This document shows positions 1 through 14,751 of a DNA stretch of 21,039 bases, one piece after another (the stretch's first letter is position 1; every line of letters begins with the position of its first letter). The notes beneath the pieces were generated by a model. It was not told where the DNA came from. It did not search any database and saw nothing but the letters and a program-made list of their open reading frames with translations. Origin of the DNA: a virus; IMG/VR virus record IMGVR_UViG_3300009108_000065, positions 1 through 21,039 of that record, one strand, 5' to 3'. A program made the position numbers and the translations under genes.

Positions 1-50
1 GAATAATAATGATTTACTTCATGCACAAAATAGTATAAGGTTTACTGACT

Positions 51-245
51 ATGAATAAATTAAAATTAAAAATTAAATTAAAAAAATTACACGAAGTCAT
101 ACATAAATTAAAGTTAAAGACTTTAGATAAAGAAGATATAATCTTTGAGGACTTTACAGAATTATCTAATAGGGTGGACACCTTGTTAGATATAGTTATC
201 CACGATACAAAGCCGAAAGATGATGGGTTGTATTTGGAGAACTAA
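51..245 (+). CDS. Hypothetical lysine/leucine-rich small protein
   Basis: A 64-aa protein of unknown function. The first 25 residues are a strongly basic K/L alternation (KLKLKIKLKKL) that could form an amphipathic helix or strand; the rest is acidic and helical in character. The start is preceded only by a weak AGG about 10 bases upstream, so the exact start is uncertain. It is the first gene visible in a run of short same-strand genes, and the operon may begin left of the window. No family is recognised. Confidence 0.55.
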   Translation: MNKLKLKIKLKKLHEVIHKLKLKTLDKEDIIFEDFTELSNRVDTLLDIVIHDTKPKDDGLYLEN

Positions 246-265
246 ACAAGAACAAAGGAGGCACA

Positions 266-457
266 ATGAGTGAACAGAAGATAAAGATGGTGTTAAGAAA
301 AGAACAGAAGTGGGGTAGAGATTTATTCTATCCTGTTAATAGAGATGATGTTTGGATACTTGGTTTGTTAAGACAAAAGTCTATGACTAGAGAGAACATA
401 AACTTTTTAAAGATGACTAACAGATTTGAGTTTGAATTAAAACAGGAAATAATATAA
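266..457 (+). CDS. Hypothetical 63-aa protein
   Basis: A small, mostly helical, charged protein with tryptophans in the first half; no family recognised. Its start is well supported by an AAAGGAGG ribosome binding site ending about 5 bases before the ATG. It lies 20 bases after the previous gene and 9 before the next, consistent with one operon. Function cannot be inferred from the sequence. Confidence 0.65.
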   Translation: MSEQKIKMVLRKEQKWGRDLFYPVNRDDVWILGLLRQKSMTRENINFLKMTNRFEFELKQEII

Positions 458-466
458 GGAGGAATA

Positions 467-715
467 ATGGTTGAATGTCCACATTGTAAAAGTAAAAAGT
501 TAGAATACTACCCAGATGTAGATAATGCAAGTTGGGTAAGACATATCTATACACAAACTAAAGATGGTTGGAAGATAAAAGTTTTTAGTGATGATGATTA
601 TGAAATTAAAAAGGATGTATCTACAATACAAACAGTTAAAATATATGATAATGATATGATGCCTTACATGTATTGCCAAGACTGTACTGCAGAAATAGAT
701 GGAAGGTATATATAA
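467..715 (+). CDS. Zinc-ribbon-like small protein
   Basis: An 82-aa protein with two cysteine pairs, CPHC at residues 4-7 and CQDC near residues 70-73. They bracket a beta-rich middle with many aromatic and acidic residues. A pair of CxxC knuckles in this arrangement is the usual signature of a zinc ribbon, so it probably binds one zinc ion and may contact nucleic acid or a host protein (inference). A strong AAGGAGG site precedes the ATG. A second cysteine-pair protein lies a few genes downstream at 1071-1388. No specific family is recognised. Confidence 0.7.
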   Translation: MVECPHCKSKKLEYYPDVDNASWVRHIYTQTKDGWKIKVFSDDDYEIKKDVSTIQTVKIYDNDMMPYMYCQDCTAEIDGRYI

Positions 716-716
716 T

Positions 717-857
717 ATGTATTGTATATTAATTAAAGATAAAGATAATGGTAGGTATAGAATATATACTAATGAAATCTTTAATCTATTAGAAGAGGCG
801 ATAGATTATGCGAAGAGATGTAAGATAAAAGTTAAATGGAAAGTTGTAGAGTTTGAC
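717..857 (+). CDS. Small hypothetical protein (46 aa)
   Basis: An open frame of 46 codons begins one base after the preceding stop (TAA-T-ATG), a spacing typical of translational coupling here. It starts MYCILIKDKDNGRYRIYTNE, which reads like a beta hairpin, followed by a helix (NLLEEAIDYAKRCK). The beta-beta-alpha pattern resembles the small proteins at 3228 and 3448. Only a weak purine-rich site (GGAAGG) lies upstream. It fills what would otherwise be a 180-base gap between well-supported genes. Confidence 0.5.
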
Positions 858-895
858 TATAAATATTTTAATTAACCTTAACTAAAGGAGGCAGT

Positions 896-1078
896 ATGTC
901 TAACAAAAAAATAACATTAACTTTAGATAAACAAATTCTAAAGGATGGGTTGCAAGGTGCTGATATGTACAAAGCAAGTGGGCAATTCATTGAGGGGAAT
1001 GCTGTTCACGATTTATTCGTTCATATTGTAGAAGAATTAAAACGAATTAAAAAGATAAAGGAGAAAAAAGATGAGTGA
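896..1078 (+). CDS. Hypothetical 60-aa protein
   Basis: A short protein with a beta-strand start (KKITLTLDKQIL), a central glycine-containing stretch and a basic helical C-terminus rich in K, E and I. The AAAGGAGG site about 4 bases upstream fixes the start. Its stop overlaps the start of the next gene by 8 bases, implying translational coupling. The layout (short strand, then amphipathic helices) could suit a small ribbon-helix-helix-type DNA-binding protein, but no diagnostic motif is present, so no function is assigned. Confidence 0.65.
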   Translation: MSNKKITLTLDKQILKDGLQGADMYKASGQFIEGNAVHDLFVHIVEELKRIKKIKEKKDE

Positions 1079-1388
1079 AGATAAAATTTATGGATGGAAT
1101 GAAGAGGAGTTAGATGTAATCTACTCTACTGAAGATGACCCTAACTTTGAACCTGACCCTGAAGAAATAAAGTGTAGTAATTGTGGTGAAGATATAGGTA
1201 CATACGATTATAGTACTTGTACTTATGACACGAAGAGTTGGGTTGCTACTGATAGAAAACAAGATTATTATTGTGATGAAGAGTGTTATAATAATGTGAG
1301 TGGTAGGTTAGTTAAAGGAGTATGGGTTAAAGAACCTTTAGTGTTTGGTTATAATAAAGAGAAAGGTTTTTATAATATATATAATTAG
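1071..1388 (+). CDS. Cysteine-rich putative zinc-binding protein
   Basis: A 105-aa acidic protein with a CSNCG knuckle (about residues 35-39), further cysteines in a tyrosine-rich middle, and a second cysteine cluster (YYCDEEC) near residues 66-72. The two clusters could form a treble-clef or zinc-ribbon site. The N-terminal third is very acidic (EDDPNFEPDPEE). It is the last gene before the 226-base control region, so it probably ends a transcription unit. The start has an AAAGGAG site inside the upstream gene. No family recognised. Confidence 0.65.
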   Translation: MSEDKIYGWNEEELDVIYSTEDDPNFEPDPEEIKCSNCGEDIGTYDYSTCTYDTKSWVATDRKQDYYCDEECYNNVSGRLVKGVWVKEPLVFGYNKEKGFYNIYN

Positions 1389-1614
1389 AAATTGTAATGG
1401 TGATATGATTAATAACCCTAATGATTTATATATAATTAATATAGAAAAATTTTTATGATTATAATAGAACATCATCAGAATTTTATAAGATGCGTCAGTA
1501 TGTCGCATATGTTAATACAAAATTTTCTGTTAGGACACACAATGAACAAGGTCTTAACATAAAATTGACACAATCTTTTAGTAGTATTGTGTTATAAAAA
1601 AACAAAAGGAGTAT
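1389..1614 (+). promoter_or_regulatory. Gene-free control region with three inverted repeats
   Basis: The longest stretch without a supportable gene. It contains three inverted repeats: ATGCG/CGCAT at 1490-1494 and 1504-1508; GTTAGGAC/GTCTTAAC with one mismatch at 1529-1536 and 1551-1558; and ACACAAT/ATTGTGT at 1568-1574 and 1586-1592, which overlaps a TTGACA box. It separates the left gene group from the long operon starting at 1615. It is best read as a regulated promoter region (inference from repeats, promoter box and lack of genes). Confidence 0.5.
1565..1595 (+). promoter_or_regulatory. Candidate sigma70-type promoter with overlapping palindrome
   Basis: A perfect TTGACA box at 1565-1570 is followed by TGTTAT at 1590-1595 (19-base spacing, longer than the ideal 17) within an A/T-rich stretch. 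A perfect 7-base inverted repeat (ACACAAT, 11-base gap, ATTGTGT) covers the space between the two boxes, where a repressor would block polymerase. The gene at 1615 starts about 20 bases downstream. The imperfect spacing makes the promoter call tentative. Confidence 0.4.
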
Positions 1615-2079
1615 ATGCATAGATATAATAAAGCTACAACTAAATATAAAGATGTACCTAACGCAGAAAAATTTATGGTTGCGTTAGATAAGTTGGATAC
1701 TAATGAGGCAGATAGTTTGGGTATGCTATTAAGTAATTTAAGTATGCCTCAAATGTGTTGCAGTTGGGTAAGTGAAGAACACTTTAATAATCTATTAGAA
1801 AAATATAAAATAGACTTGACCCCTTATGTTAAAGATGATACAAGAATTACTACCTCTATTAAATCTGAAATAGCAACTGAACTATTTAGATTAATAGATA
1901 GTGATAAGTACAAGAAGAGAAACTTAATCAAAGCATTAAGACTTAAATTTCCTGATGTCAATTCAGGTGTGATATGTAGATTGATTAAGAAATATTTATC
2001 TTTAAGAATACTAGAGATAGATAGAACATATAAAACAAAACCCTTTGTAATCAAAGGTAAGTACTATATAGGAGGATAG
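1615..2079 (+). CDS. Hypothetical 154-aa protein, possible C-terminal winged helix
   Basis: First gene after the control region, with an AAAAGGAG site very close to its ATG. The N-terminal half is helical, with a CCSW motif near residues 48-51. The C-terminal 50 residues have a helix-turn-helix rhythm (NLIKALRLKFPDVNSGVICR), then a basic helix and a strand pair, resembling a winged helix. If so it might bind the palindromes just upstream, but this is inference; no family is clearly recognised. Its end carries the GGAGG site used by the next gene. Confidence 0.65.
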   Translation: MHRYNKATTKYKDVPNAEKFMVALDKLDTNEADSLGMLLSNLSMPQMCCSWVSEEHFNNLLEKYKIDLTPYVKDDTRITTSIKSEIATELFRLIDSDKYKKRNLIKALRLKFPDVNSGVICRLIKKYLSLRILEIDRTYKTKPFVIKGKYYIGG

Positions 2080-2232
2080 ATGAATAAAACAATAGGACAA
2101 TTAATAAAAGAAAATCATTGGAGTACACGAAGATTAGCAGTAGCCATAAACATAACAAAGGAGGACATACGCAAATGGGAAAAGTCAAACAAGCCATACA
2201 AGAAGTTGAAGAAGAAGTCATATCTTTGGTAA
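2080..2232 (+). CDS. Cro-like helix-turn-helix mini-protein
   Basis: A 50-aa open frame starts directly after the preceding stop, with GGAGG 4 bases upstream. The sequence from W14 to S36 (WSTRRLAVAINITKEDIRKW) fits the XRE/Cro helix-turn-helix pattern: helix 2 RRLAVAI, turn, recognition helix KEDIRKWE. A lysine-rich tail follows. It is little more than the HTH itself, shorter than typical Cro proteins (about 60-70 aa). It lies just downstream of the repeat-rich control region and may regulate it. The next gene's ribosome binding site and start lie inside it in another frame. Confidence 0.6.
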   Translation: MNKTIGQLIKENHWSTRRLAVAINITKEDIRKWEKSNKPYKKLKKKSYLW

Positions 2233-2396
2233 TGGATGGGTTTAAATTGAGTGAGATTAAAGCTACATTTAATTATCAAAATGAGATGAATAGTTTAGAC
2301 AATCTTTACTTCCTTGATGATACTTTAGTTGAGAAGTATTATGACAAGGCAGTATGGCAAAAAGAAAATGATGGAGAGGAGTATCCTTATGAATAA
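2175..2396 (+). CDS. Hypothetical acidic helical protein
   Basis: The reading frame is open further upstream, to a TTG at 2118, but the ATG at 2175 is chosen. It has AAAGGAGG about 10 bases before it, and the longer version would overlap most of the HTH gene. The 73-aa product (MGKVKQAIQEVEEEVISLVM) is acidic and mainly helical, ending in DGEEYPYE. The ATG of the next gene overlaps its stop by 8 bases. No family recognised. Confidence 0.6.
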   Translation: MGKVKQAIQEVEEEVISLVMDGFKLSEIKATFNYQNEMNSLDNLYFLDDTLVEKYYDKAVWQKENDGEEYPYE

Positions 2397-2574
2397 GAAT
2401 AAAGAATATATATACATAACAAGAACTATGAAGATAAATGTACCAGCTTTATTGTGTCAAGATGCGATTGATAAGATACAATCTATGAAAAAACAAGACT
2501 TGATACCAAAAGAAAAGGGCTTTCTTTATACAAGATGCAGAGTAAGAGATAGAGGTAATAGATATGAACTCTAA
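2389..2574 (+). CDS. Hypothetical 61-aa protein
   Basis: The chosen ATG overlaps the previous stop (ATGAATAA) and has GGAGAGGAG shortly upstream; an in-frame upstream start at 2329 lacks this support. The protein has a beta-like start (KEYIYITRTMKINVPALLC), a helix (CQDAIDKIQSMKK) and a basic C-terminus (TRCRVRDRGNRYEL). The layout resembles other small beta-alpha phage proteins, but there is no diagnostic motif. Confidence 0.55.
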   Translation: MNKNKEYIYITRTMKINVPALLCQDAIDKIQSMKKQDLIPKEKGFLYTRCRVRDRGNRYEL

Positions 2575-2716
2575 ACAATTAGAATATGAGATAATAAAAG
2601 CATTAGATATAAATTCTAAAGTTGATTGGAATTGGGCAGAGTTAACACCTAACGAAGAGTTTAAAGAATTGAAAATCTTTTTTAGAAAATTATTTAAGGA
2701 GTATCATGGACTTTAA
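2564..2716 (+). CDS. Small hypothetical protein (50 aa)
   Basis: A 50-codon frame overlaps the end of the previous gene and the start of the next. AGAGGT lies upstream of its ATG, and its own end contains the AAGGAG that serves the gene at 2706. The product, starting MNSKQLEYEIIKALDINSKV, is an amphipathic, tryptophan-containing helical protein. It exactly fills the interval between two better supported genes. Confidence 0.55.
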   Translation: MNSKQLEYEIIKALDINSKVDWNWAELTPNEEFKELKIFFRKLFKEYHGL

Positions 2717-3077
2717 AAATTTACAATACACCTTTGAAGAGTTAGGTGATGTACCTTTTAATGTGGTTAGAATTATGAATGAATGTTGGAATGCTTATAT
2801 GGATGGTGATATAACACAAGCAGGTGAGCATGGTGATTTGATGGCGAGTGGGTGGATGATAGGTAAAGAGTTTGATACCAAGATAAATCAAATTGGTTAT
2901 GATGTAGAAAAATATAAAGAGTTAAAAGAAACATTAGTGAATGATGTTGATGAACACAATCAACATTTATATTGGAAACATTATGAGCCAAGTGAAACAG
3001 AAGAAGAAGATAATGATGAGCCAAAGACTAGGTTAGAACAGATGAGTAAGCTAACTCATGACCCTATTGTAGATTGA
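2706..3077 (+). CDS. Hypothetical acidic protein (123 aa)
   Basis: A 123-aa protein with a helical N-terminal domain containing two tryptophan/glycine-rich stretches (ASGWMIGKEFD) and a very acidic, probably disordered C-terminal region (SETEEEDNDEP). AAGGAG ends 4 bases before the ATG. An acidic surface like this is common among phage inhibitors that mimic DNA, but nothing specific supports that role here. The stop overlaps the next start (TGATG). Confidence 0.65.
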   Translation: MDFKNLQYTFEELGDVPFNVVRIMNECWNAYMDGDITQAGEHGDLMASGWMIGKEFDTKINQIGYDVEKYKELKETLVNDVDEHNQHLYWKHYEPSETEEEDNDEPKTRLEQMSKLTHDPIVD

Positions 3078-3241
3078 TGAACAGAAAAGAATATAATAAA
3101 CTCTACCATCAAAGACCTGATGTGATAGAAAAGAAAAGGAAATACTTTAAAGAGTATAACGCAAGACCTGAAGTTAAACAGGCGAGGCACGAATGGTACA
3201 TTAATAAGAAAATTAAGGAGGTTAATAATGCCAAGATATAA
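3077..3241 (+). CDS. Short basic protein with RPEV-type repeats
   Basis: A 54-aa frame coupled to the previous stop through TGATG. It contains two imperfect copies of a basic unit: YHQRPDVIEKKRKYFKEY, then NARPEVKQARHEWY. Arrays of 'Y-x-RPEV-K' units are familiar as basic flanking segments of some phage HNH/endonuclease VII-type proteins. Here the segment stands alone without a nuclease domain, so it may be a remnant or a small nucleic-acid-binding protein (inference). The next gene's AAGGAGG site lies within its end. Confidence 0.55.
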   Translation: MNRKEYNKLYHQRPDVIEKKRKYFKEYNARPEVKQARHEWYINKKIKEVNNAKI

Positions 3242-3461
3242 AATAACAGAACACCTAACAGGGTGGAAAATAGTAGAGAACTTTATTGATGCTAAAGATG
3301 AAGATGATGCATGGGAAAAACATAATGAGAGAGATTATGTTAATCAGGAATGGAGAGAAGCAGAAGAAGAATATAAATTAGTTGATACAGAGATAACTAA
3401 AGAAGGAGATACACCAACAGAGGGTGTTAAGAAATGGAGAGAGCAGAATGAAAAAGTATAG
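3228..3461 (+). CDS. Small beta-beta-alpha protein, first of a related pair
   Basis: A 77-aa protein with a strand pair (YKITEHLTGWKIVENF), a helix beginning IDAKDEDDAWEKHNE and an acidic second half. The order 'Y-x-I/V ... A-x-D-x-x-DA ... W' is repeated in the next gene at 3448, so the two look like diverged duplicates. AAGGAGG lies 7 bases before the ATG. Function unknown; related small phage proteins are typically uncharacterised. Confidence 0.6.
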   Translation: MPRYKITEHLTGWKIVENFIDAKDEDDAWEKHNERDYVNQEWREAEEEYKLVDTEITKEGDTPTEGVKKWREQNEKV

Positions 3462-3630
3462 AGTGTGGGGATATGAAACTCAAGGATACTACATAGAACT
3501 AAAGGCAAACAACAAACAAGATGCTCATGACAAAGCTATGGATGTTAATAGAGATGAATGGATAGAGGGTAATGATGGAGAGAGTACTTGTTTTGATATT
3601 AATAAAAAAGATATGGAGTTAATTAAATGA
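3448..3630 (+). CDS. Small beta-beta-alpha protein, second of a related pair
   Basis: The ATG at 3448 (GGAGAG upstream) is preferred over a GTG at 3424. The 60-aa product begins MKKYRVWGYETQGYYIELKA, then NNKQDAHDKAMD and WIEG. It has the same layout as the upstream protein: strand, strand ending in a hydrophobic/acidic pair, then a helix starting 'A-N-N-K-Q-D-A'. It overlaps both neighbours slightly. Function unknown. Confidence 0.6.
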   Translation: MKKYRVWGYETQGYYIELKANNKQDAHDKAMDVNRDEWIEGNDGESTCFDINKKDMELIK

Positions 3631-3950
3631 AACTTGATGACAAGAGATGGGCGAGTGCTTACATAGATGGTGAAGGATATTTACAATTTGAGAATGTAAA
3701 GTATAAAAGAAAAAGAATAGAGGTGACAGGCACAGACTTTGCACCAATAAGATTATTACATAAACTTTTTGGAGGTAGAATTTATAAGTCTAAACCTAGA
3801 ATAACAGCGACAGGTAAGAAAGCTAAACCTCAAGAGATATGGGTAGCTTTAAATGAAACAGCTTACAAAGTATGTAAAACTATACTACCTTATCTCTTAA
3901 CAAAGAAGAGAATAAAAGTAGCAAAGGAGATAGTTAAATATTATGAGTAA
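3627..3950 (+). CDS. Free-standing LAGLIDADG-type homing endonuclease-like protein
   Basis: A 107-aa protein. WASAYIDGEGYLQF near residues 8-21 matches the LAGLIDADG helix-plus-strand motif, with the acidic catalytic residue in DGEG. It is followed by a beta region, HKLFGGRIYKSK, an IWVALNE strand, and the helix-rich end LPYLLTKKRIKVAKEIV, which matches the usual 'iL.yL..K..ka' ending. One motif per chain implies a homodimer, as in I-CreI-type enzymes (family knowledge). It is not inside an intron or intein and overlaps its neighbours by 4-8 bases. It may be an active free-standing endonuclease or a domesticated DNA-binding protein. Confidence 0.75.
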   Translation: MKLDDKRWASAYIDGEGYLQFENVKYKRKRIEVTGTDFAPIRLLHKLFGGRIYKSKPRITATGKKAKPQEIWVALNETAYKVCKTILPYLLTKKRIKVAKEIVKYYE

Positions 3951-4245
3951 GAAAATTAAAATAAAGAAAGCTATCTATGGTAAGAAGCAGTTTAATTTAC
4001 CTGAAGAATTAGATTATTATAAAAGATATAAGATGATAAATATACCAGCAGATTTGGTTGATGATATACACCAAGCAGTTGGTAGAGCAGAGGGTTTCAT
4101 TCCATGTAATACTATTGCTGAAGAGTTAGATGCGTGGCAATTTCTAATAGATACAGGGATTGTTTGGAAATTACATGGATGGATGGGCAGACAAGCACAT
4201 TTTTTAATTGATAATAAAATATTAAAAGAAAGGGTTGTGCATTAG
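3943..4245 (+). CDS. Conserved phage-type hypothetical protein (100 aa)
   Basis: Residues 60-93 include AWQFLIDTGIVWKLHGWMGR followed by QAHFLIDNKIL. This 'LIDTG-x-x-W-x-L-x-G-x-x-GR-x-A-x-x-LI' pattern is one I recognise from small uncharacterised proteins of environmental phages. The N-terminal 40 residues are basic and tyrosine-rich. Its ATG overlaps the LAGLIDADG gene by 8 bases. No activity is known to me. Confidence 0.65.
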   Translation: MSKKIKIKKAIYGKKQFNLPEELDYYKRYKMINIPADLVDDIHQAVGRAEGFIPCNTIAEELDAWQFLIDTGIVWKLHGWMGRQAHFLIDNKILKERVVH

Positions 4246-4268
4246 ATTTTAATGTGCTATAAGAACAT

Positions 4269-4409
4269 ATGTCATTAAGATTTAAAAAATTAATAGTTAG
4301 GTTGCGTATGTGGTATGCTAAAATAAGAGGACACAAAGGACATAGATGGGATTACGAACCATCTGCATGGTACATGGGTAGACATAACAAAAAAAATAAG
4401 GAGAAATAA
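4269..4409 (+). CDS. Small basic protein (46 aa)
   Basis: A 46-codon frame fills the interval between two well-supported genes. It begins MSLRFKKLIVRLRMWYAKIR, a strongly basic amphipathic helix, then a His/Trp/Tyr-rich part (GHRWDYEPSAWYMGRHNKK). The end of the frame contains the AAGGAG site for the next gene. The ribosome binding site is weak (AAGAAC). Possibly membrane-surface or nucleic-acid associated, judging only from charge. Confidence 0.45.
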   Translation: MSLRFKKLIVRLRMWYAKIRGHKGHRWDYEPSAWYMGRHNKKNKEK

Positions 4410-4411
4410 AA

Positions 4412-4642
4412 ATGATTACATATGATAATGTAAAAATAATCTCAACAAAAATTGATAAAGATTATTGGGATGAAGATAAAAGAAAACATATAAAGTATAA
4501 GACACCGAAGATAACAAAAAAAACTTTATTTGAGAATAATATTTTTGAGTTAGGTGAATTATATACCGCAATTAAATTTTCATTAGAACAAGAACCTTAT
4601 GATAAAGTTTCAGTTGCGTTTGATGTTAAACAAGAATATTAA
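4412..4642 (+). CDS. Hypothetical 76-aa protein
   Basis: A lysine- and aspartate-rich protein with a beta-like N-terminus, a helix (FELGELYTAIKFSLEQE) and a final strand (KVSVAFDVKQEY). AAGGAG lies about 8 bases before the ATG. It sits between two small genes in the same operon. No family or motif recognised. Confidence 0.6.
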   Translation: MITYDNVKIISTKIDKDYWDEDKRKHIKYKTPKITKKTLFENNIFELGELYTAIKFSLEQEPYDKVSVAFDVKQEY

Positions 4643-4654
4643 TAGGAGAAATAA

Positions 4655-4873
4655 ATGTTTGGAAAAGTTAAAGAAGCAGAGTTGAAAAGATATATAGTAA
4701 TGTCTAAAGGTAAGTTTAGTGAAACTTTTTATCAAGACAGAGCATTTAAAACAGTTGAAGATGCTGATGCGTATGCAAAGTTAATGCAGAAACAAGAAGA
4801 GAAAGATGGACATCAATACTATTTGTTTGAGCAAAGCAAACACTATGGGAATGGTGAGGAGAAAAATGGGTGA
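4655..4873 (+). CDS. Hypothetical 72-aa protein
   Basis: A small protein with strand-strand-helix character (RYIVMSKGKFSETFYQD, then TVEDADAYAKLMQKQ) and a charged glycine-rich tail. The layout again resembles the beta-beta-alpha proteins at 3228-3630. AGGAG lies 6 bases upstream of the ATG. The end overlaps the next gene and carries its GAGGAG site. Function unknown. Confidence 0.6.
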   Translation: MFGKVKEAELKRYIVMSKGKFSETFYQDRAFKTVEDADAYAKLMQKQEEKDGHQYYLFEQSKHYGNGEEKNG

Positions 4874-5340: not shown

Positions 5341-5466
5341 TTGTCTAAACCATTGATTTTATTGAATAAAATTTATTTTTTAGGGGTGTTGGCACAGGTG
5401 GTATTGCCCTCTATAATAGGAGATACTGCCCTACTTAATAGGGTTAGTATTTCTTTTATTAAATAA
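5341..5466 (+). CDS. Possible 41-aa membrane-like peptide with TTG start
   Basis: AAGGAGAATATA precedes a TTG that opens a 41-codon frame; the peptide begins MSKPLILLNKIYFLGVLAQV and is hydrophobic enough for one membrane segment. The same bases form two hairpins (see adjoining entries), the second terminator-like. The region could instead be non-coding RNA structure with a chance reading frame. The good ribosome binding site is the main argument for coding. Confidence 0.35.
   Translation: MSKPLILLNKIYFLGVLAQVVLPSIIGDTALLNRVSISFIK
5381..5413 (+). repeat. Hairpin in GC-richer island
   Basis: TAGGG (5381-5385) can pair with CTCTA (5409-5413), and GGCA (5391-5394) with TGCC (5405-5408), enclosing a 10-base loop. 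The 5' arm carries a five-base bulge (GTGTT). The base composition is markedly less AT-rich than the surroundings. It lies just upstream of the terminator-like hairpin. Confidence 0.35.
5423..5460 (+). terminator. Candidate intrinsic terminator after LexA-like gene
   Basis: ATACT-g-CCCTA (5423-5433), loop CTTAA, TAGGG-tt-AGTAT (5439-5450) gives ten base pairs with a small internal loop. A T-rich stretch, TTCTTTTATT, follows. This fits a rho-independent terminator or a partial attenuator inside the long operon. The T tract is interrupted, so readthrough is likely. Confidence 0.5.
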
Positions 5467-5485
5467 TATTTTATTGGATAGTACT

Positions 5486-7665: not shown

Positions 7666-8115
7666 ATGGCAATAATTGAAGGCACAGCTTACTGGGCTTC
7701 TCTGACACGACCAAACGAAAAGTTTGAACCTATGTGGAGAATTGATTTAGCAGTTGATGATGCAACAGCACAGGATTTTAAATCTCAAGGATTTAATATT
7801 GGTGAAACAAAAGCTGATGATAAAGTAGTAAAGAATATCATCAGGTTTAAGAGAAAGGTTTCAAAAGCAAATGGTGATAAGAACCAACAACCACAATTAG
7901 TGGATGCTGAAAAGAAACCTATTGAAAAAATAATCGGTAATGGCAGTAAGGTAAAGGTAATGTATAAATCTTATGACTGGAATTTCAAAGGAAAGAAGGG
8001 CAAAGGTTTAGATTTACAAGCTGTTCAGGTACTGGACTTAGTGGAATACACACCTAAAGAAGGATTTAATGTAGAAAAATCTTCTAATGGTGTTGACATC
8101 AAGGAAGATTTTTAG
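7666..8115 (+). CDS. Single-stranded DNA-binding protein, T7 gp2.5-like
   Basis: A 149-aa protein. The N-terminus AIIEGTAYWASLTRPNEKFE, the WRIDLAVDD strand, the central basic IRFKRKVSK region, GNGSKVKVMYKSYDW and GLDLQAVQVLDLVEY match the OB-fold ssDNA-binding proteins of T7-like phages. The C-terminus is acidic and ends in a terminal Phe (DIKEDF), the feature through which T7 gp2.5 contacts polymerase and helicase. It is shorter than T7 gp2.5 (232 aa), as in other marine T7-like phages. AAAAGGAAAA precedes the ATG. Its 3' end overlaps a promoter reading into the region before the helicase gene. Confidence 0.88.
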   Translation: MAIIEGTAYWASLTRPNEKFEPMWRIDLAVDDATAQDFKSQGFNIGETKADDKVVKNIIRFKRKVSKANGDKNQQPQLVDAEKKPIEKIIGNGSKVKVMYKSYDWNFKGKKGKGLDLQAVQVLDLVEYTPKEGFNVEKSSNGVDIKEDF

Positions 8116-8121
8116 TATAAA
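8093..8121 (+). promoter_or_regulatory. Near-consensus sigma70 promoter at the end of the SSB gene
   Basis: TTGACA (8093-8098), a 17-base spacer and TATAAA (8116-8121) match the sigma70 consensus at 11 of 12 positions with ideal spacing. Transcription would start near 8128, at a GG. It overlaps the last codons of the SSB gene and points into the hairpin region and terminator that follow. Confidence 0.65.
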
Positions 8122-8127
8122 CCTCTT

Positions 8128-8210
8128 GGTTATTTAGTCATAATGCGTGACTACATTTTCTACTCCTACTGGAGAGTCGGCTTGTAATAGGGTCGGCTCT
8201 CCTTTTTTTT
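8128..8210 (+). ncRNA. Candidate phage small RNA or helicase-gene attenuator
   Basis: The interval begins 7 bases after a near-consensus promoter and ends in a strong intrinsic terminator, giving a predicted RNA of about 83 bases. It contains a perfect hairpin, TAGTCA (8135-8140) / TGACTA (8148-8153) with a 7-base loop, then a T/C-rich linker (ATTTTCTACTCCTA), then the terminator hairpin. CTCC at 8163-8166 could alternatively pair with GGAG at 8171-8174, disrupting the terminator. It could be a free small RNA or a leader controlling readthrough into primase-helicase. No known RNA family is recognised. Confidence 0.5.
8171..8210 (+). terminator. Strong intrinsic terminator between SSB and helicase genes
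   Basis: GGAGAGTCGGC (8171-8181) pairs with GTCGGCTCTCC (8192-8202) as 11 pairs including two G-T pairs, around a 10-base loop. Eight T residues follow (8203-8210). This is a textbook rho-independent terminator and much more GC-rich than its surroundings. It ends immediately before an ATG at 8211. Confidence 0.9.
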
Positions 8211-8234
8211 ATGAACGAATTTAAAAGGGCGACA

Positions 8235-9866
8235 ATGGAAACAAAAACTGGATTTGTAAAGTATCATCTACCCTGTCCATTATGTGACAGTACTGATGCT
8301 GTATCTGTTAATGCAGATGGTTCGGCATTTTGTTTTTCATGTCAACAATATATGAAGGAATATGATATGGAAACAAAACAAACAAATGGTAATGGGAAAC
8401 ATGAATACGAAGTTAAAGATTATATGAAGTCATCTGATTATGCAGAGATAGTAGATAGAAATTTAAGTGAACCTACTTGCAGAAGATATGGGGTGACAAT
8501 TAAGATGGATAGTATGGGTAATATAACAAATCATTATTATCCTTACCATGACAAACAAGGTGCAAAGATTGCAACTAAAACTAGATTTACAAAATTAAAA
8601 GAGTTTACTATACAAGGTAATACAAAGAACTCTGGATTATTTGGAGAACATTTATTCTCTAAAAATAAATTTGTAATAATAACTGAGGGTGAGATAGATT
8701 GTTTATCAGCTTATCAAATGTTTAAGACAGATAGATATGAAACTCCTGTGGTTAGTATTAAGAATGGTATAACTTCTGCAGTTAAAGATATTAAAGGAAG
8801 TTTAGATTGGTTAGAACAATTTGAAAATGTTATAGTAAACTTTGACAATGACGAGCATGGTCGTGAAGGTGCATTAAAGGTAGCTGAATTATTTAGCCCT
8901 GGGAAATGTAAGATAATGTATCTTCCAAATGAATTTAAAGATGCATCTGATTGCTTGATGAAAAATAAATTACAAGTATATCAAAAAGCATTTTGGAATG
9001 CGAAGGTCTATGCTCCTGATGGAATTATAAATGCTAACATTTTATTTGATGAGATAAGTAAACCAACACTTCAAAGCTTTGTTCAATATCCTTTTGAAGG
9101 ATTAAATAAAATAACATATGGATTAAGACCATCTGAATTAGTGACGTTTACTTCAGGTAGTGGGTTAGGTAAGACCCAAGTTATGAGAGAGTTGGTTCAT
9201 CATTTAATTAAATCTACTAAAGATAATATAGGTTTGTTAATGTTAGAAGAGACCCCTGTTATAACATCTAAAGGTATAATGAGTATTGAAGCGAATCAAA
9301 GATTACATTTACCTGATGTTCATGTACCTAAAGAAGAATTAAAAACTTATTTTGATGCAACTGTTGGTACTGGTAGAGTATTTATGTTTGACCATTTTGG
9401 TTCTAACACTATTGATAATATAGTTTCAAGAGTTAGATATTTAGCTAAAGGTTTAGATTGTAAATATATTATTATAGACCACGTTAGTATTATTGTATCT
9501 GACCAAAGTCATGGTGATGAGAGAAGAGCATTGGATGAAATCATGACTAGATTAAGAACACTTGTACAAGAAACAGGTATAGCTATGATAGTTGTATCAC
9601 ATTTAAGACGACCTGATGGTAAAGGACATGAAGAGGGTGCGGCAACTTCTCTATCTCAATTAAGAGGTAGTGCTAGTATAGGACAGTTAAGTGATATGGT
9701 TATCGGATTGGAAAGAGATGCACAAAATGATGACCCTGATATTAGAAATACAACAAAGGTTAGAGTATTAAAGAATAGATTTGCAGGATTAACTGGACCA
9801 TGTTGTGATTTAAAATATGATAATGATACAGGAAGATTAACTGAAGTTAAAGCAAATGACTTTTGA
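8235..9866 (+). CDS. Primase-helicase, T7 gp4-like
   Basis: Bifunctional primase and replicative helicase of about 543 aa. In order: a zinc-binding domain with CPLC and CFSC (residues about 14-36); a TOPRIM primase domain with TEGEID near 150 and FDND near 202; and a RecA-like DnaB-family helicase with Walker A GSGLGKT near 307, EE downstream, Walker B IIIDHVSI near 411, SHLRRPDG and RVLKNRF near the end. All match T7 gp4. The frame is open back to 8211, but that ATG abuts the terminator's T tract with no ribosome binding site. The ATG at 8235 has AAAGGG upstream and gives the family's usual short lead before the zinc finger. The stop overlaps the polymerase start. Confidence 0.93.
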   Translation: METKTGFVKYHLPCPLCDSTDAVSVNADGSAFCFSCQQYMKEYDMETKQTNGNGKHEYEVKDYMKSSDYAEIVDRNLSEPTCRRYGVTIKMDSMGNITNHYYPYHDKQGAKIATKTRFTKLKEFTIQGNTKNSGLFGEHLFSKNKFVIITEGEIDCLSAYQMFKTDRYETPVVSIKNGITSAVKDIKGSLDWLEQFENVIVNFDNDEHGREGALKVAELFSPGKCKIMYLPNEFKDASDCLMKNKLQVYQKAFWNAKVYAPDGIINANILFDEISKPTLQSFVQYPFEGLNKITYGLRPSELVTFTSGSGLGKTQVMRELVHHLIKSTKDNIGLLMLEETPVITSKGIMSIEANQRLHLPDVHVPKEELKTYFDATVGTGRVFMFDHFGSNTIDNIVSRVRYLAKGLDCKYIIIDHVSIIVSDQSHGDERRALDEIMTRLRTLVQETGIAMIVVSHLRRPDGKGHEEGAATSLSQLRGSASIGQLSDMVIGLERDAQNDDPDIRNTTKVRVLKNRFAGLTGPCCDLKYDNDTGRLTEVKANDF

Positions 9867-11538
9867 TAAAGTAATATTTGATATTGAAACAACTCTTAAT
9901 GCAGATAAAATTTGGTGTATTGTTTGTAAACATAAAGGTACTTACTATCAATTCAGACAAGATAAATTACATAGGTTTGAAGAGTTTATAAAACAAACTG
10001 ATGAAGTAATAGGACATAATATTATAGGGTTTGATATACCAGTACTCAATAGATTTTTTGGTTATGATTTATTTAAGAAGTGTAAGATAACTGATACATT
10101 AATCTTATCAAGATTACTTAATCCTATGTTAGAGGGTGGTCATTCATTAAGAAACTGGGGAGAAAAACTTTATAAAAAGAAATATGAGTTTGACCAGTTT
10201 GATTATTTTAGTGAAGAGATGTTAAGGTATTGTAGAAATGATGTTGACTTAACAGAAAAGTTATACAACTTCCTTTCTAAAAAGATGACAGACTTTGGTA
10301 AGTCAATTGATTTAGAACATAAGGTTGCACATATAATACAACGACAACATGAACGAGGATTTATGATTGATGTAGTAGGTGCACATATGCTTCAAGCTAA
10401 ATTTAAAGAGGACATGAATACTCTTCAAGATAAAGTTAGAGAAACTTTTCCTCCTTTAAAAATTGAAACAGAATTTATTCCAAAGGTTAATAACAAAGCT
10501 AAAGGATATGTAAAGGGAAAACCTTTTACTAAAGTTAAGTTTAAAGAATTTAATTTAGGTTCACGACAACAGATTGGAGAACGATTAATTATGTTGGGGT
10601 GGAAACCTAAAAAGAAAACAGATAAAGGACATATAATAGTTGATGAAAAAGTTTTATCAGAGATTAAAAATATTCCTGAAGCTGAATTAATTAAAGAGTT
10701 TCTAATGCTTCAGAAAAGAATTGCTCAAGTCAGTTCTTGGATTGAAGCAACTAGAGAGGATGGTAGAGTACATGGCAAAGTAATTACAAATGGTACTGTT
10801 ACTGGAAGGATGAGCCATCAATCGCCCAATATGGCACAAGTTCCTGCTGTGTACTCGCCCTATGGTAAGGAATGTAGGGCATTATGGGTGGCAAAGAAGG
10901 GCTATAAATTAGTAGGTGTTGATGCTTCAGGACTTGAGTTGAGGATGTTAGCACATTACATGAACGATAAGGAATACACAAATGAAATCATTAATGGAGA
11001 TATACACACAGCAAATAAAAATTCTGCTGGTTTGGGGTCAAGAGATGAGGCGAAGACTTTTATTTACGCATTCATCTATGGAGCAGGGGATAAAAAAATC
11101 GGAAGTATCCTCGGAAGGTCTGAAGCAGATGGAAGAAGAGTTAAAGAAAAATTTCTCAGACATACACCAAGTCTTAGAAGCTTACGAGAAAAAGTGGATG
11201 GAGTGGCTAAAAAAAGATGGCTCAAAGGACTTGACCAAAGAAAAATCCTCATAAGACACCCCCATGCGGCTTTAAATACCCTATTACAGGGTGCTGGTGC
11301 GTGTGTTATGAAGTATGCGTTGACATTACTAGAAGAATATGTTATAAAGAAACGAATCAAAGCTTATCCTGTAGTAAATGTACATGATGAGTTTCAATAT
11401 GAAGTTGAAGAAAGTAAAACAAAAGAGTTCGGAGAGTTGGCAGTACAGTCAATCATCCAAGCTGGAAAGGATTTAAAAATAAGGTGTCCATTAGATGGCG
11501 AATATAAAATCGGAAACAACTGGGCAGAAACGCATTGA
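9856..11538 (+). CDS. DNA polymerase, T7 gp5-like family A
   Basis: A 560-aa replicative polymerase. The 3'-5' exonuclease domain has FDIET (D9, E11), HNIIGFD (D60) and YCRNDVDLT (D129). The polymerase domain has VTGRMSHQSPN, SPYGKECRA, VDASGLELR (catalytic D near 356), the O-helix AKTFIYAFIYGAG (K400, Y404) and VHDEF (catalytic D near 511); it ends GNNWAETH, like T7 'GPNWAICH'. It is about 145 aa shorter than T7 gp5, partly because the region of the thioredoxin-binding loop is much reduced. Tyr at the position of E. coli Pol I Phe762 is usual in lytic phages. It overlaps helicase by 11 bases and the nuclease gene by 44. Confidence 0.95.
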   Translation: MTFDKVIFDIETTLNADKIWCIVCKHKGTYYQFRQDKLHRFEEFIKQTDEVIGHNIIGFDIPVLNRFFGYDLFKKCKITDTLILSRLLNPMLEGGHSLRNWGEKLYKKKYEFDQFDYFSEEMLRYCRNDVDLTEKLYNFLSKKMTDFGKSIDLEHKVAHIIQRQHERGFMIDVVGAHMLQAKFKEDMNTLQDKVRETFPPLKIETEFIPKVNNKAKGYVKGKPFTKVKFKEFNLGSRQQIGERLIMLGWKPKKKTDKGHIIVDEKVLSEIKNIPEAELIKEFLMLQKRIAQVSSWIEATREDGRVHGKVITNGTVTGRMSHQSPNMAQVPAVYSPYGKECRALWVAKKGYKLVGVDASGLELRMLAHYMNDKEYTNEIINGDIHTANKNSAGLGSRDEAKTFIYAFIYGAGDKKIGSILGRSEADGRRVKEKFLRHTPSLRSLREKVDGVAKKRWLKGLDQRKILIRHPHAALNTLLQGAGACVMKYALTLLEEYVIKKRIKAYPVVNVHDEFQYEVEESKTKEFGELAVQSIIQAGKDLKIRCPLDGEYKIGNNWAETH

Positions 11539-12424
11539 TACAATAGCTACTGATATTAAAAATTTAGTAGCTGGAATATCTAATGGTAAACCTGCAAAAG
11601 TAACAGAGGAAAACATGGAGAGATTCCTTAATAATATTAAGGAAGCTTTTAATGCATGGAATAATCCTGTCAGAGAAAAGGATGGGAAATTAAGAATGAG
11701 TGTACTAGGTAAACCACCTAGACAATTATGGTATGATAGATTTAGTCCAAAGAAAACTAAAGACTATGATGCTAGTTTAAATATTAAATTTTTATATGGA
11801 CATATATTAGAACATTTATTATTATATCTAGCAGAATTAACTGGACATAAAATTGGAGACCAACAAAAGAAAGTAGAGATAGATAATATTAAAGGACATA
11901 TAGATGCAACAGTAGATGGTGAAGTATGTGATGTTAAGTCTGCATCATCATTTAGTTTTAAGAAATTTAAAACAGGTGAGTTAGTTAATGATGACCCATT
12001 TGGTTATCATGCCCAGCTATCAGGATATGAAACAGGTATGGGTACAAAGGCAGGTGGCTTCTTGGTTATGGATAAATCAAGTGGAGATGTTTGTTTCTAT
12101 AAACCTGATGAGTTAGCTAAACCTAATGTTACAACTTTAATTAAAACATTACAAGATACATTAAAGAGTAATGCACCACCTGAAAGATGTTATGAATTAT
12201 CTGAAACTAAAGGTGGAAATAAATCTTTACCTATTGGTTGTCAGTTTTGTGCACATAAATGGGAGTGTTATAAAGATGCAAATGGTGGTAAAGGATTAAG
12301 AGTATTTAAATATTCTAATAAGTTTGTTTATTTAGCTGAAGTAAATAGACAACCAAATGTTGAAGAGATAACTAAAAACTTTTCTGAAGAATTAAAAACA
12401 TATGGAAAGCGAATTAAAACATAA
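11495..12424 (+). CDS. RecB/Cas4-like PD-(D/E)XK exonuclease with cysteine cluster
   Basis: A 309-aa nuclease. Motifs: YGHILEH (H103, E106), GHIDAT (D137), CDVKSA (D146, K148) and HAQLSGYE (Q174, Y178, the QxxxY motif typical of RecB/Cas4 nucleases). C232 and CQFCAHKWEC (C249, C252, C258) lie near the end. C-x2-C-x5-C is the spacing that holds an iron-sulfur cluster in Cas4/AddB enzymes, so a cluster is likely (inference). It is the expected counterpart of the T7 gp6 exonuclease, degrading host DNA and processing ends. Its start lies 44 bases inside the polymerase gene, with AAGGTG upstream. Its stop overlaps the SpeD-like gene. Confidence 0.85.
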   Translation: MANIKSETTGQKRIDTIATDIKNLVAGISNGKPAKVTEENMERFLNNIKEAFNAWNNPVREKDGKLRMSVLGKPPRQLWYDRFSPKKTKDYDASLNIKFLYGHILEHLLLYLAELTGHKIGDQQKKVEIDNIKGHIDATVDGEVCDVKSASSFSFKKFKTGELVNDDPFGYHAQLSGYETGMGTKAGGFLVMDKSSGDVCFYKPDELAKPNVTTLIKTLQDTLKSNAPPERCYELSETKGGNKSLPIGCQFCAHKWECYKDANGGKGLRVFKYSNKFVYLAEVNRQPNVEEITKNFSEELKTYGKRIKT

Positions 12425-12794
12425 ACATTTATTAGTTAGAGCAGAAACTTTAGAACCACCTAAAGATTTAAAAGCTATTAAGAAGTGGATGAGGTCTTTA
12501 ATAAAAGATATTGGTATGAAAGTATTAGGTGGACCTTATGCAAAGTATTGTGAGGTACAAGGTAATAGAGGATTAACTTGTGTTACTATTATAGAAACCT
12601 CACATATAACTTTACACTCATGGGATGAACTGAACCCTGCTTTAGTACAGTTAGATGTGTATAGTTGTAAAGAGTTAGATGAAAAGATTGTGTTTGATTA
12701 TGTTTATAAGTTTCAACCTGTTAGGATGAGTTATAGATATTTTGATAGAGAAAAGAATTTTAAATTATTAAAGTTAGATAAAGATGGAAACTAA
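12402..12794 (+). CDS. speD: S-adenosylmethionine decarboxylase-like protein (SpeD family)
   Basis: A 130-aa protein, the length of class 1B prokaryotic SpeD. KHLLVRAE resembles the family's first strand. ETSHITLHSWDE at 65-76 matches the family's 'ESHxTxHTWPE', placing the pyruvoyl-forming serine at S67 and the catalytic histidine at H72; LDVYSC places the catalytic cysteine at C89. The residue before the cleavage serine is T66 where Thermotoga SpeD has Glu. Self-cleavage would yield a pyruvoyl enzyme that decarboxylates AdoMet for spermidine synthesis. No spermidine synthase is nearby, and some SpeD homologues decarboxylate ornithine or arginine instead, so the substrate is uncertain. It overlaps both neighbours. 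Confidence 0.82.
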   Translation: MESELKHKHLLVRAETLEPPKDLKAIKKWMRSLIKDIGMKVLGGPYAKYCEVQGNRGLTCVTIIETSHITLHSWDELNPALVQLDVYSCKELDEKIVFDYVYKFQPVRMSYRYFDREKNFKLLKLDKDGN

Positions 12795-13113
12795 AAATAA
12801 AGAATTATATAAACCATTACCTAATAATGAATGTATTAAACTTACAATTGATAAGAGTAAGATACAAGGTCTAGGATTATTCACCCAATTGTTTGTACCA
12901 AAGGGTGTTAATTTTGGTATAAGTCATTACAAAATTAAAGATGAACTTATTCGTACACCTTTAGGTGGATTTATAAATCATTCTGATGACCCTAATTGTG
13001 AGAAAGTAAAAACACATGATGCAAATTATAGTAAATATAATTTAGTTTCTATAAAAGATATTACAGGAGGAGATGAACTAACTGTTAAATATACTTTTTA
13101 TAATATAAAATGA
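12784..13113 (+). CDS. Minimal SET-domain protein, putative lysine methyltransferase
   Basis: A 109-aa protein that is essentially only a SET domain. IQGLGLFT (27-34) matches the first SET motif (GxGLFA). GGFINHSDDPNC (61-72) matches the AdoMet-binding 'RFINHSCxPN'. ISIKD-type strand and GGDELTVKYTFY (95-106) match 'GEELTxDY', with the catalytic tyrosine in the final stretch. Its size is close to the minimal viral SET enzyme of chlorella viruses. It should use AdoMet to methylate lysine on a protein, host or phage. It directly follows the SpeD-like gene with an 11-base overlap. No pre-SET or post-SET cysteines are present. Confidence 0.8.
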   Translation: METKNKELYKPLPNNECIKLTIDKSKIQGLGLFTQLFVPKGVNFGISHYKIKDELIRTPLGGFINHSDDPNCEKVKTHDANYSKYNLVSIKDITGGDELTVKYTFYNIK

Positions 13114-13295
13114 AAAAATATCTATTAAAACTTACACAAAAAATCACAACTTGGCATGAAAAGATGTTTAAATATCTTACTCGCAAATCTAAAACGAGTG
13201 TGTTTTTTACTTGGCTTTTAGTTTTTATTTGTTTGTATGAAATTTTTGAACATATTATTATACCTATCATTTTAATTTGGTGGGGATTAAGTTGA
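13110..13295 (+). CDS. Small membrane protein (61 aa)
   Basis: The start overlaps the SET gene's stop (ATGA). A basic N-terminal half (KKYLLKLTQKITTWHEKM) precedes a hydrophobic stretch from about residue 30 to the end (VFFTWLLVFICLYEIF and IIIPIILIWWG), enough for one long or two short membrane helices with the N-terminus in the cytoplasm. Its stop falls inside the first copy of a 27-base direct repeat. Function unknown. Confidence 0.55.
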   Translation: MKKYLLKLTQKITTWHEKMFKYLTRKSKTSVFFTWLLVFICLYEIFEHIIIPIILIWWGLS

Positions 13296-13555
13296 ACACT
13301 AAACAAATGAGTAAGATAAATAAATATGAAATAAAAGAACCGATTTGGAAAGATAAGAGTATAGGAATTGCTGACTTTAGATTAAAAAATGATTTACAAG
13401 TTGATATAACTTATAAAAATAAAAACAATGAAAGGATTTTTCCAGATACTTATATTATAAAAAATCCTAATTTGATAAATAGAGACTATCAAATTATCCA
13501 TGGTAATAAAATATATAAATTTTTAATAAGTGAATTAGAGGTTTATGAACACTAA
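13292..13555 (+). CDS. Hypothetical 87-aa protein starting in a direct repeat (TTG start)
   Basis: A TTG at 13292, preceded by GGGG, is chosen because the following codons (NTKQMSKI) are identical to those after the ATG of the gene at 13545; the internal ATG five codons later is an alternative. The rest is beta-rich and lysine-rich (DLQVDITYKNKNNERIF; NKIYKFLISELEVYEH) with no known motif. The shared start segment arises from a 27-base direct repeat. Confidence 0.5.
   Translation: MNTKQMSKINKYEIKEPIWKDKSIGIADFRLKNDLQVDITYKNKNNERIFPDTYIIKNPNLINRDYQIIHGNKIYKFLISELEVYEH
13293..13319 (+). repeat. 27-base direct repeat, copy 1
   Basis: A 27-base sequence starting TGAACACTAAACAAATGAGT is repeated exactly at 13546-13572, 253 bases downstream. 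Each copy covers a gene start and encodes NTKQMSKI in the frame used. Flanking bases differ, so the boundaries are sharp. Confidence 0.9.
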
Positions 13556-13856
13556 ACAAATGAGTAAGATAAGGAATAAAGCTAAACATATAATGGTTGA
13601 ATGGCTTAAAGGATTATTAAATCCTGAAGAGCAAAAGAAAGTTAATGTTAAGAATGTATTAACTTTAATGCCTAATCAAACTCATTATTGGCATGGTACT
13701 ACATTACGTTTACAACCTTGGTCTTATAAATGGATAGTAAAGAAATTAAAAAAGAATCCTCATTGGACTATAGATGATTTAAATGAAAGTTTAGAACCAA
13801 GTGAGAAAGATAAACGTAGACAAAAATATATGGAGAAAGGACCAATGGTTCTGTAA
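13545..13856 (+). CDS. Conserved phage-type hypothetical protein (103 aa)
   Basis: Begins MNTKQMSKIRNKAKHIMVEW; AGAGG lies 3 bases before the ATG. The core (LMPNQTHYWHGTTLRLQPWS, then YKWIVKKLKKNPHWTIDDL) is a pattern I associate with uncharacterised proteins of marine phages: a conserved 'MPNQTHY' followed by a basic helix. It may bind DNA or RNA, judging from charge. The first nine residues come from the direct repeat shared with the previous gene. The stop overlaps the next ATG (TAATG). Confidence 0.6.
   Translation: MNTKQMSKIRNKAKHIMVEWLKGLLNPEEQKKVNVKNVLTLMPNQTHYWHGTTLRLQPWSYKWIVKKLKKNPHWTIDDLNESLEPSEKDKRRQKYMEKGPMVL
13546..13572 (+). repeat. 27-base direct repeat, copy 2
   Basis: Exact second copy of the repeat at 13293-13319. 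Here it begins at the second base of the ATG of the gene at 13545 and includes the stop codon of the preceding gene. Confidence 0.9.
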
Positions 13857-14095
13857 TGACAGATAAAGGAATGTTTAAAGGTATGACATATGAATCGTTA
13901 AATAAACAAGTAGATGGAAATCATTATAGTAATATGAAGATTCAACCAGCAGAATTTATTAATGAAAATAACTTACTCTTTGCTGAGGGTAATGCTATTA
14001 AGTATATATGCAGACATCAGAAAAAGGGTAAGAGAAAGGATATAGAAAAAGCCATACACTATTTAGAAATGATATTGGAAAGGGATTATGAATAG
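13856..14095 (+). CDS. DUF3310-family protein
   Basis: A 79-aa protein. VDGNHYSNMKIQPAEFINEN, then FAEGNAIKYICRHQKKG and KRKDIEKAIHYLEMILE, match the DUF3310 family: 'H-Y ... qP.e ... GNaiKYi.R ... Dl.KA..Yl'. The family is widespread in phages and is sometimes annotated as a nucleotide kinase-like protein, without firm evidence. It is full length. Its start overlaps the previous stop, and its stop overlaps the next start by 8 bases. Context is late in the replication arm. Confidence 0.8.
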   Translation: MTDKGMFKGMTYESLNKQVDGNHYSNMKIQPAEFINENNLLFAEGNAIKYICRHQKKGKRKDIEKAIHYLEMILERDYE

Positions 14096-14441
14096 CGAAG
14101 CACAAATAAGACAACTAGAAAAAAGAGCAAGAGGTTTTCGTATACTGATTGCAGCATTAAATGATTTATCTATGTATGGTATTAATCCTACCATAGATAA
14201 GATGTTGTTTGTTAGAATTGGTGAACTTAAAGAACACTTAAAGAAAAAAATAACAAGGAATAATGAAAAGTTAAATGAACATTATACCACAAGTGTTGAT
14301 AGTTTAATTGATGATGATGGACAATCAGGTGAGTTAGGAGTTGAAAAATATTTAGTTAAAGGATATGATACTTTAGAACATAAAACTTCTTCTGATGCTG
14401 AAGATTTAAGTTACGAAAATGACACGAGAAAAGATAGTTGA
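14088..14441 (+). CDS. Hypothetical 117-aa protein
   Basis: A helical, basic N-terminal half (AQIRQLEKRARGFRILIAAL; RIGELKEHLKKKITRNNEKL) and an acidic, probably disordered C-terminal half rich in S, D and E. The start is coupled to the DUF3310 gene. The N-terminal part could be a short coiled coil. Overlaps the next gene by 23 bases. No family recognised. Confidence 0.6.
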   Translation: MNSEAQIRQLEKRARGFRILIAALNDLSMYGINPTIDKMLFVRIGELKEHLKKKITRNNEKLNEHYTTSVDSLIDDDGQSGELGVEKYLVKGYDTLEHKTSSDAEDLSYENDTRKDS

Positions 14442-14751
14442 TTTAAAAGGTAATCCAATTAAAGGTAAACCTGATGTATATAACATGAGGTTATGTTTAG
14501 TTGGCTTAGATGATATTGATATAAAGAATGTCCAAACATTTGGAATTGCTGATGATGGATTCTTTATGGTTAAAAGTTTTAACAACACAAGACTACCAGT
14601 CTTTATGACTAATCCTATTAGAGTTAGAAGTGTAGAGATATATAAAGATGGTACTAAACCCCTAACAAAATTAAGAAAAGACAAAGCTGATGATGACTTC
14701 TTTGTTGATTTAATGAGGAAAGCTAGTGCAACCCAACCGAAAGTTAAGTAG
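14419..14751 (+). CDS. Hypothetical 110-aa protein
   Basis: A mostly beta-type protein (MRLCLVGLDDIDIKNVQTFG; GFFMVKSFNNTRLPVFMTNP; RVRSVEIYKDG) followed by a helical lysine-rich end (DDFFVDLMRKASATQPKVK). The regular strand spacing suggests a small beta barrel, possibly nucleic-acid binding, but no diagnostic residues are seen. It starts within the end of the previous gene and has no clear ribosome binding site. Confidence 0.6.
   Translation: MTREKIVDLKGNPIKGKPDVYNMRLCLVGLDDIDIKNVQTFGIADDGFFMVKSFNNTRLPVFMTNPIRVRSVEIYKDGTKPLTKLRKDKADDDFFVDLMRKASATQPKVK

Follow-up and report, generated by a model that had tools for sequence, protein, structure and literature searches.

Among the anti-Shine-Dalgarno (anti-SD) small RNAs of Alphaproteobacteria, SmelC671 has an unpaired CUCCCUGU flanked by a hairpin on each side, of which the 3' hairpin is the terminator, and SmelA075/A099 present anti-SD CCUCCUCCC loops (PMC3927594). 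The element described here, at the junction of the ssb and primase-helicase genes of a phage, resembles these RNAs in its pair of hairpins enclosing a CUCC-type motif that is single-stranded, a 3' terminator and a host within the Alphaproteobacteria; compared by description, it differs in being phage-borne, in its shorter motif and in its fixed position at the ssb-helicase junction. Among phage RNAs, OOP of lambda is short, has its own promoter, lies near replication genes and is antisense to cII, and PreS of lambda and VpdS of VP882 are trans-acting small RNAs that bind Hfq (PMC12197685). The element shares with OOP a short RNA, an own promoter (both predicted here) and the nearby replication genes, but no overlapping antisense gene was seen; with PreS and VpdS it shares the status of phage small-RNA gene and, as proposed below, base pairing to mRNAs, whereas its host group has no Hfq match in 41 Pelagibacteraceae genomes. 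Attenuators with intrinsic terminators show the same succession of promoter, leader hairpin, terminator and operon; unlike them, the element has no visible leader peptide or conserved competing antiterminator helix. The paper describing the HTVC103P-type group mentions neither promoters nor terminators (PMC8528129), the SAR11 infection transcriptomes that we found cover other phages, HTVC022P and HTVC027P (PMC12753301), and no description of a small RNA of SAR11 phages was found in the literature searched, from which subscription papers were mostly absent.

Source phage and relatives compared

The window, i.e. the whole stretch of DNA analysed (21,039 nt, record IMGVR_UViG_3300009108_000065), is a 21 kb fragment of an HTVC103P-type pelagiphage. 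Among named phages, HTVC104P and HTVC103P come closest (79% and 78% DNA identity, respectively, across ssb-helicase; 82% identity of the primase-helicase protein), both cultured, with SAR11 strain HTCC7211 as host. The helicase and SSB proteins, used as queries, gathered 149 loci, and later scans added further ones; layout was counted over 84 distinct ssb-helicase junctions and codons over 86 distinct ssb genes. Many of the junctions are close kin, and because the promoter and the T-run each switch just three times on the helicase tree, the association between these two traits (p = 1.7e-11) is not independent and was discarded as evidence.

The ssb-helicase gap had a constant order in all 84 distinct junctions, consisting of the stop codon of ssb, hairpin 1, a CUCC-type motif predicted to be unpaired and a GC-rich hairpin 2, usually with a T-run on its 3' side (Table 1). 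Conservation of the hairpins in related phages had been put forward in an earlier note on this DNA as a test of the locus, and its outcome is positive, the layout being kept throughout.

Table 1. Features of the ssb-helicase junction in the window, with the basis of each assignment.
Feature	Positions	Strand	Basis
ssb (single-stranded DNA binding protein)	7666..8115	+	named after annotated relatives in HTVC103P/104P
-35 element TTGACA	8093..8098	+	within last ssb codons; codon-level conservation
-10 element TATAAA	8116..8121	+	17 bases from TTGACA, spacing kept in relatives
Predicted small RNA, ~83 nt	8128..8210	+	spacing from -10 and T-run end; predicted ends
Hairpin 1, UAGUCAU-AAUGC-GUGACUA	8135..8153	+	predicted fold; comparison
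Single-stranded linker, CTACTCC core 8160-8166	8154..8170	+	CTCC conservation; predicted unpaired
Hairpin 2, terminator stem	8171..8202	+	13 pairs counting G-U; compensatory changes
T-run of intrinsic terminator	8203..8210	+	T8
Primase-helicase, probable true start 8235	8235..9866	+	AGGGCGACA-ATG conserved; Toprim and DnaB_C domains

A predicted promoter embedded in the end of ssb

The TTGACA-17-TATAAA promoter that the earlier note reported is present; the 118 bases that it described as lacking a gene do include part of one, since the -35 element sits in ssb and only the sequence from 8116 onward is intergenic. A TTGACA-type promoter was found in 69 of the 84 distinct junctions (68 with TTGACA-17-TA and one with TTGATA-18), the TA-starting hexamer lying directly past the ssb stop and varying among relatives (TATAGT, TATAAC, TACAAC, TAGTAT, TATCAT). 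On single-sequence statistics this promoter is not special, as the AT-rich window holds 104 promoter-like sites against 117 expected, and in the window scan it falls short of the scan's own rule; the support for the predicted promoter at 8093-8121 is comparative. TTGACA is retained with either end of the ssb protein, ...GVDIKEDF or ...SVDNIKEF. Across the 86 distinct ssb genes the valine codon within the -35 element is GTT in 73/73 cases, while the other valine columns tested all vary, and the aspartate codon is GAC in 71/78, against 31% GAC for ssb aspartates overall. The fixation of GTT and GAC against this background points to selection on TTGAC as DNA, beyond the needs of the protein.

Two further promoter sequences were noted elsewhere in the window. 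A perfect consensus promoter, TTGACA-17-TATAAT (18226-18198, minus strand), lies upstream of an Hsp20 gene and is conserved in HTVC103P and HTVC104P. A second promoter-hairpin unit, in 5341-5480, combines TTGGCA-17-TATAAT (5389-5417) with a GCCCTA..TAGGG hairpin (5428-5444), whose pairing is kept despite base changes in close relatives (L354, L358, L373); this unit may overlap a short ORF.

Hairpins, linker and terminator

The RNA from 8116 to 8210 is predicted to fold at -31.7 kcal/mol, compared with -16.6 +/- 2.8 for shuffled sequences (z -5.3; 0/200 as good). Hairpin 1, noted earlier as a perfect 6-bp hairpin, was confirmed with an additional U-G pair and a 5-base loop. It occurs in every clade at the same place with a very different stem sequence; its pairs are intact in 100% of clade A cells, with G-U changes on one side only, and covariation inside clades is weak. 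Two-sided changes are almost all within hairpin 2, where compensatory changes affect five pairs in each of clades A and D with all cells paired, and where two G-U pairs are invariant across clade A. The covariation score of clade A was 0.249, compared with 0.133 for shuffled alignments (0/500) and no more than 0.062 for slid ones, and covariation was detected again in clade D. The eight T's described earlier at the end of the terminator stand, although its stem counts 13 pairs and not 11; a T-run follows this stem in 69/84 distinct junctions.

Between the hairpins, CTCC was present in 81/84 distinct junctions, the remaining three having UCCU. The CUACUCC of the window has a predicted mean unpaired probability of 0.89, and in 58 of 60 relatives the predicted unpaired probability of CUCC exceeds 0.8.

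Intrinsic terminators are common between phage genes, and the locus could on that account be an ordinary intergenic terminator with chance extras. Hairpin 1, CUCC and the promoter are nevertheless conserved from clade to clade, and the structure outlasts loss of the T-run; both observations weigh against this explanation, which we consider very improbable. Three sequence features to be expected of a small-RNA gene were found, namely a predicted promoter of its own (on sequence evidence), a structure with compensatory changes and an own terminator in the form of the predicted 13-bp hairpin and T8. A feature to be expected of a trans-acting anti-SD RNA, an exposed CUCC-type motif complementary to the SD sequence, was found as well (predicted unpaired). 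Conservation of promoter, structure and terminator across clades supports the discrete small RNA that the earlier note had envisaged, and such an RNA is probably made from 8093-8210. Its site within the replication module and its short, terminated predicted transcript would also suit replication-linked transcription, loosely like lambda pO/OOP, in which the promoter activates, or the RNA primes, replication near ssb-helicase; a primer needs neither a conserved CUCC nor covarying hairpins, and we regard this alternative as extremely improbable.

Distribution and loss of promoter and T-run in clade D

An exact hairpin-2 pattern matched 61 of 2.9 million viral contigs, 60 of which had an HTVC103P-type ssb and/or helicase alongside, the other being a chance match in an unrelated GC-rich contig. 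A covariance model built from clade A (R1) found one copy per phage, at the ssb-helicase locus only; it matched the window at 84.6 bits, a copy of the window sequence having been in the model, and recognised clade D only weakly (0.016-0.22). What this group conserves is the sequence of the promoter, the RNA structure, the CUCC-type motif, the locus and the occurrence as one copy. R1 gave no match in the HTVC115P type, which is the sister group, or in HTVC200P, 119P, 109P or two roseophages, where a diverged form could escape it, and none in 397 Pelagibacteraceae genomes, searched under stricter filters without an internal positive control; in the HTVC115P type the ssb-helicase gap is just 20-30 bases. 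Rfam 15 yielded no match at the gathering threshold (best PyrR, 27 vs 54 bits), the match to mmgR/suhB stood at chance level (16.1 bits vs a gathering threshold of 41), and no tRNA was found.

On a helicase tree rooted on the HTVC115P type, clade D is nested among the remaining element-bearing phages, and within it loss of the promoter came before loss of the T-run. Clade D junctions, mostly without promoter or T-run, keep both hairpins and ACUCC, and because these outlived the two losses the RNA structure is probably useful beyond termination. The same pattern and order of losses would fit an element of processed mRNA, in which the hairpins and linker work inside the ssb-helicase transcript (affecting its stability, its processing or the binding of a protein) and the promoter and terminator play a secondary part. 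TTGAC is, however, apparently selected at the DNA level in most lineages, which would be superfluous for an element borne on mRNA alone, and this explanation appears decidedly unlikely.

Much of clade D (L120, L123, L125, L127, L137, L143) has an anti-SD core, ACCUCC, as the loop of hairpin 2, on a stem without T-run. An apparent covariation in this clade between the ssb ribosome site and the hairpin-2 loop (GAGGTA with TACCTC) was rejected, as close relatives with AGGAAA share the loop.

The helicase start and possible attenuation in cis

The earlier note had the terminator abutting the helicase gene. This is probably not so, as the AGGGCGACA-ATG common to relatives at the helicase start has its ATG at 8235 in the window, and the gene probably starts there rather than at 8211. 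Several relatives (loci L153, L154, L060, L065, L067, L148) have a hydrophobic ORF of ~30 aa, MNEFK... in HTVC103P and HTVC104P, between terminator and helicase, and the MNEFK ATG of the window at 8211 (8211-8225) looks like a remnant of such an ORF, fused to the helicase. For the other neighbour, the window ssb product had no Pfam match. Further along the replication module, a small SET-domain protein (Pfam PF00856) is encoded at 12784-13113, adjoining an S-adenosylmethionine decarboxylase gene (12402-12794).

The principal rival to a small-RNA gene is a cis attenuator, a promoter-terminator leader that passes part of transcription to the primase-helicase operon and yields the short RNA as a by-product. 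A strong predicted terminator directly 5' of the replication operon with a promoter on the same strand, the lack of any strong promoter found between terminator and helicase, and a predicted partial pairing of the linker with the helicase start in read-through RNA of the window all favour it. That pairing, however, reaches a predicted probability above 0.5 in just 9/42 junctions (read-through RNA), the distance to the helicase is variable, with the small ORF inserted in some relatives, and the clade D structure persists without a T-run. The competition of CUCC for the GGAG of the terminator stem, which the earlier note took as attenuator-like, is not conserved either: GGAG follows CTCC within 16 bases in only 41/81 junctions, so that no conserved helix competing with the terminator stem was found, and an attenuator of this design is unsupported because CUCC is kept where hairpin 2 has no GGAG. 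We judge attenuation somewhat unlikely. Of the two readings offered earlier, a small RNA or a means of adjusting how much helicase is made relative to SSB, the small RNA is supported by the conserved promoter, structure and terminator and the CUCC/GGAG detail is not; the element may still act in cis on the helicase, including the setting of that ratio, because helicase mRNA begun upstream must read through the terminator.

GGAG ribosome sites and the anti-SD reading

GGAG was scored before the ATG of ORFs at all loci with enough flank. The counts for upstream ORFs and for those from ssb onward were, respectively, 108/481 and 1/193 in clades A-C, 24/71 and 1/35 in clade D, and 39/78 and 21/74 in the element-less HTVC115P type. 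Among individual phages, HTVC103P had GGAG in 21/34 early genes, 0/10 genes from ssb onward and 11/34 late genes, HTVC104P in 19/36, 0/10 and 11/34, and HTVC115P, which lacks the element, in 10/21, 4/12 and 13/39. The ssb ribosome site itself contained GGAG in none of 34 distinct forms from element-bearing phages and was AGGAGG in all 10 forms of the HTVC115P type. In the window, most early genes (1-4700) are led by AGGAG-type ribosome sites and the genes from ssb onward (7666-14700) are not. This bias, a post hoc comparison in which avoidance amounts to few homologous genes and few independent differences, is suggestive in that it would fit an RNA damping early genes and sparing the replication module; late genes are also GGAG-led, in about a third of cases.

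In mean energy of pairing with HTVC103P gene starts, no shuffled linker equalled the real one (0/300). The linker has only a short CUCC seed, and none of its candidate targets is prominent; the top HTVC103P match, gp15 (GGAGGAGTAGATAAATG), is not among the strong HTVC104P sites. Full antisense pairing to one gene start was considered, since the linker complement GGAGTAGAAAATG resembles an SD sequence with ATG, but was rejected, as no strong match to it was found in the window. Exact matches of GGAGTAGAAAATG in 16 SAR11 genomes numbered two, ~170 bases inside a 383-aa ORF, and no covarying target of the linker was found. Searches for Hfq (PF17209) and ProQ (PF04352) gave no match in the 41 Pelagibacteraceae genomes (G011, G017-G056), with positive controls, and the usual small-RNA chaperones may thus be absent from the host; any pairing by the linker would then need another chaperone or none.

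Proposed function and significance

Our preferred explanation, to which we give an even chance, is that HTVC103P-type pelagiphages have a small-RNA gene, here at 8093-8210, whose CUCC linker most likely pairs with GGAG. Transcription, RNA ends, targets and timing are what we infer in the following scheme. Host RNA polymerase of the sigma-70 type would initiate at ~8128 from the promoter with its -35 element in the end of ssb, and transcription would end in the T-run; the resulting RNA of ~83 nt would consist of a 5' hairpin, an exposed (U)ACUCC linker and the terminator hairpin. The linker would pair with GGAG Shine-Dalgarno sequences and damp translation of GGAG-led mRNAs, chiefly those made from early genes of the phage itself, after the replication module has switched on; ssb and the genes downstream would be spared because GGAG is avoided there. 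The anti-SD mechanism taken by itself is tentative, and we place it somewhat short of an even chance. In its fullest form, an Hfq-independent phage anti-SD RNA acting as an early-to-replication translational switch that silences GGAG-led early mRNAs as a class, the proposal is unlikely.

The element is most likely a new family of an already known kind of RNA. SAR11 are the most abundant bacteria of the ocean, and the element is a conserved predicted small RNA of their phages, with cultured members in which it is directly testable. If the anti-SD reading is true, the phage would sort its own mRNAs into classes by the sequence of their ribosome sites, and would do so in a host that seems to lack both Hfq and ProQ.
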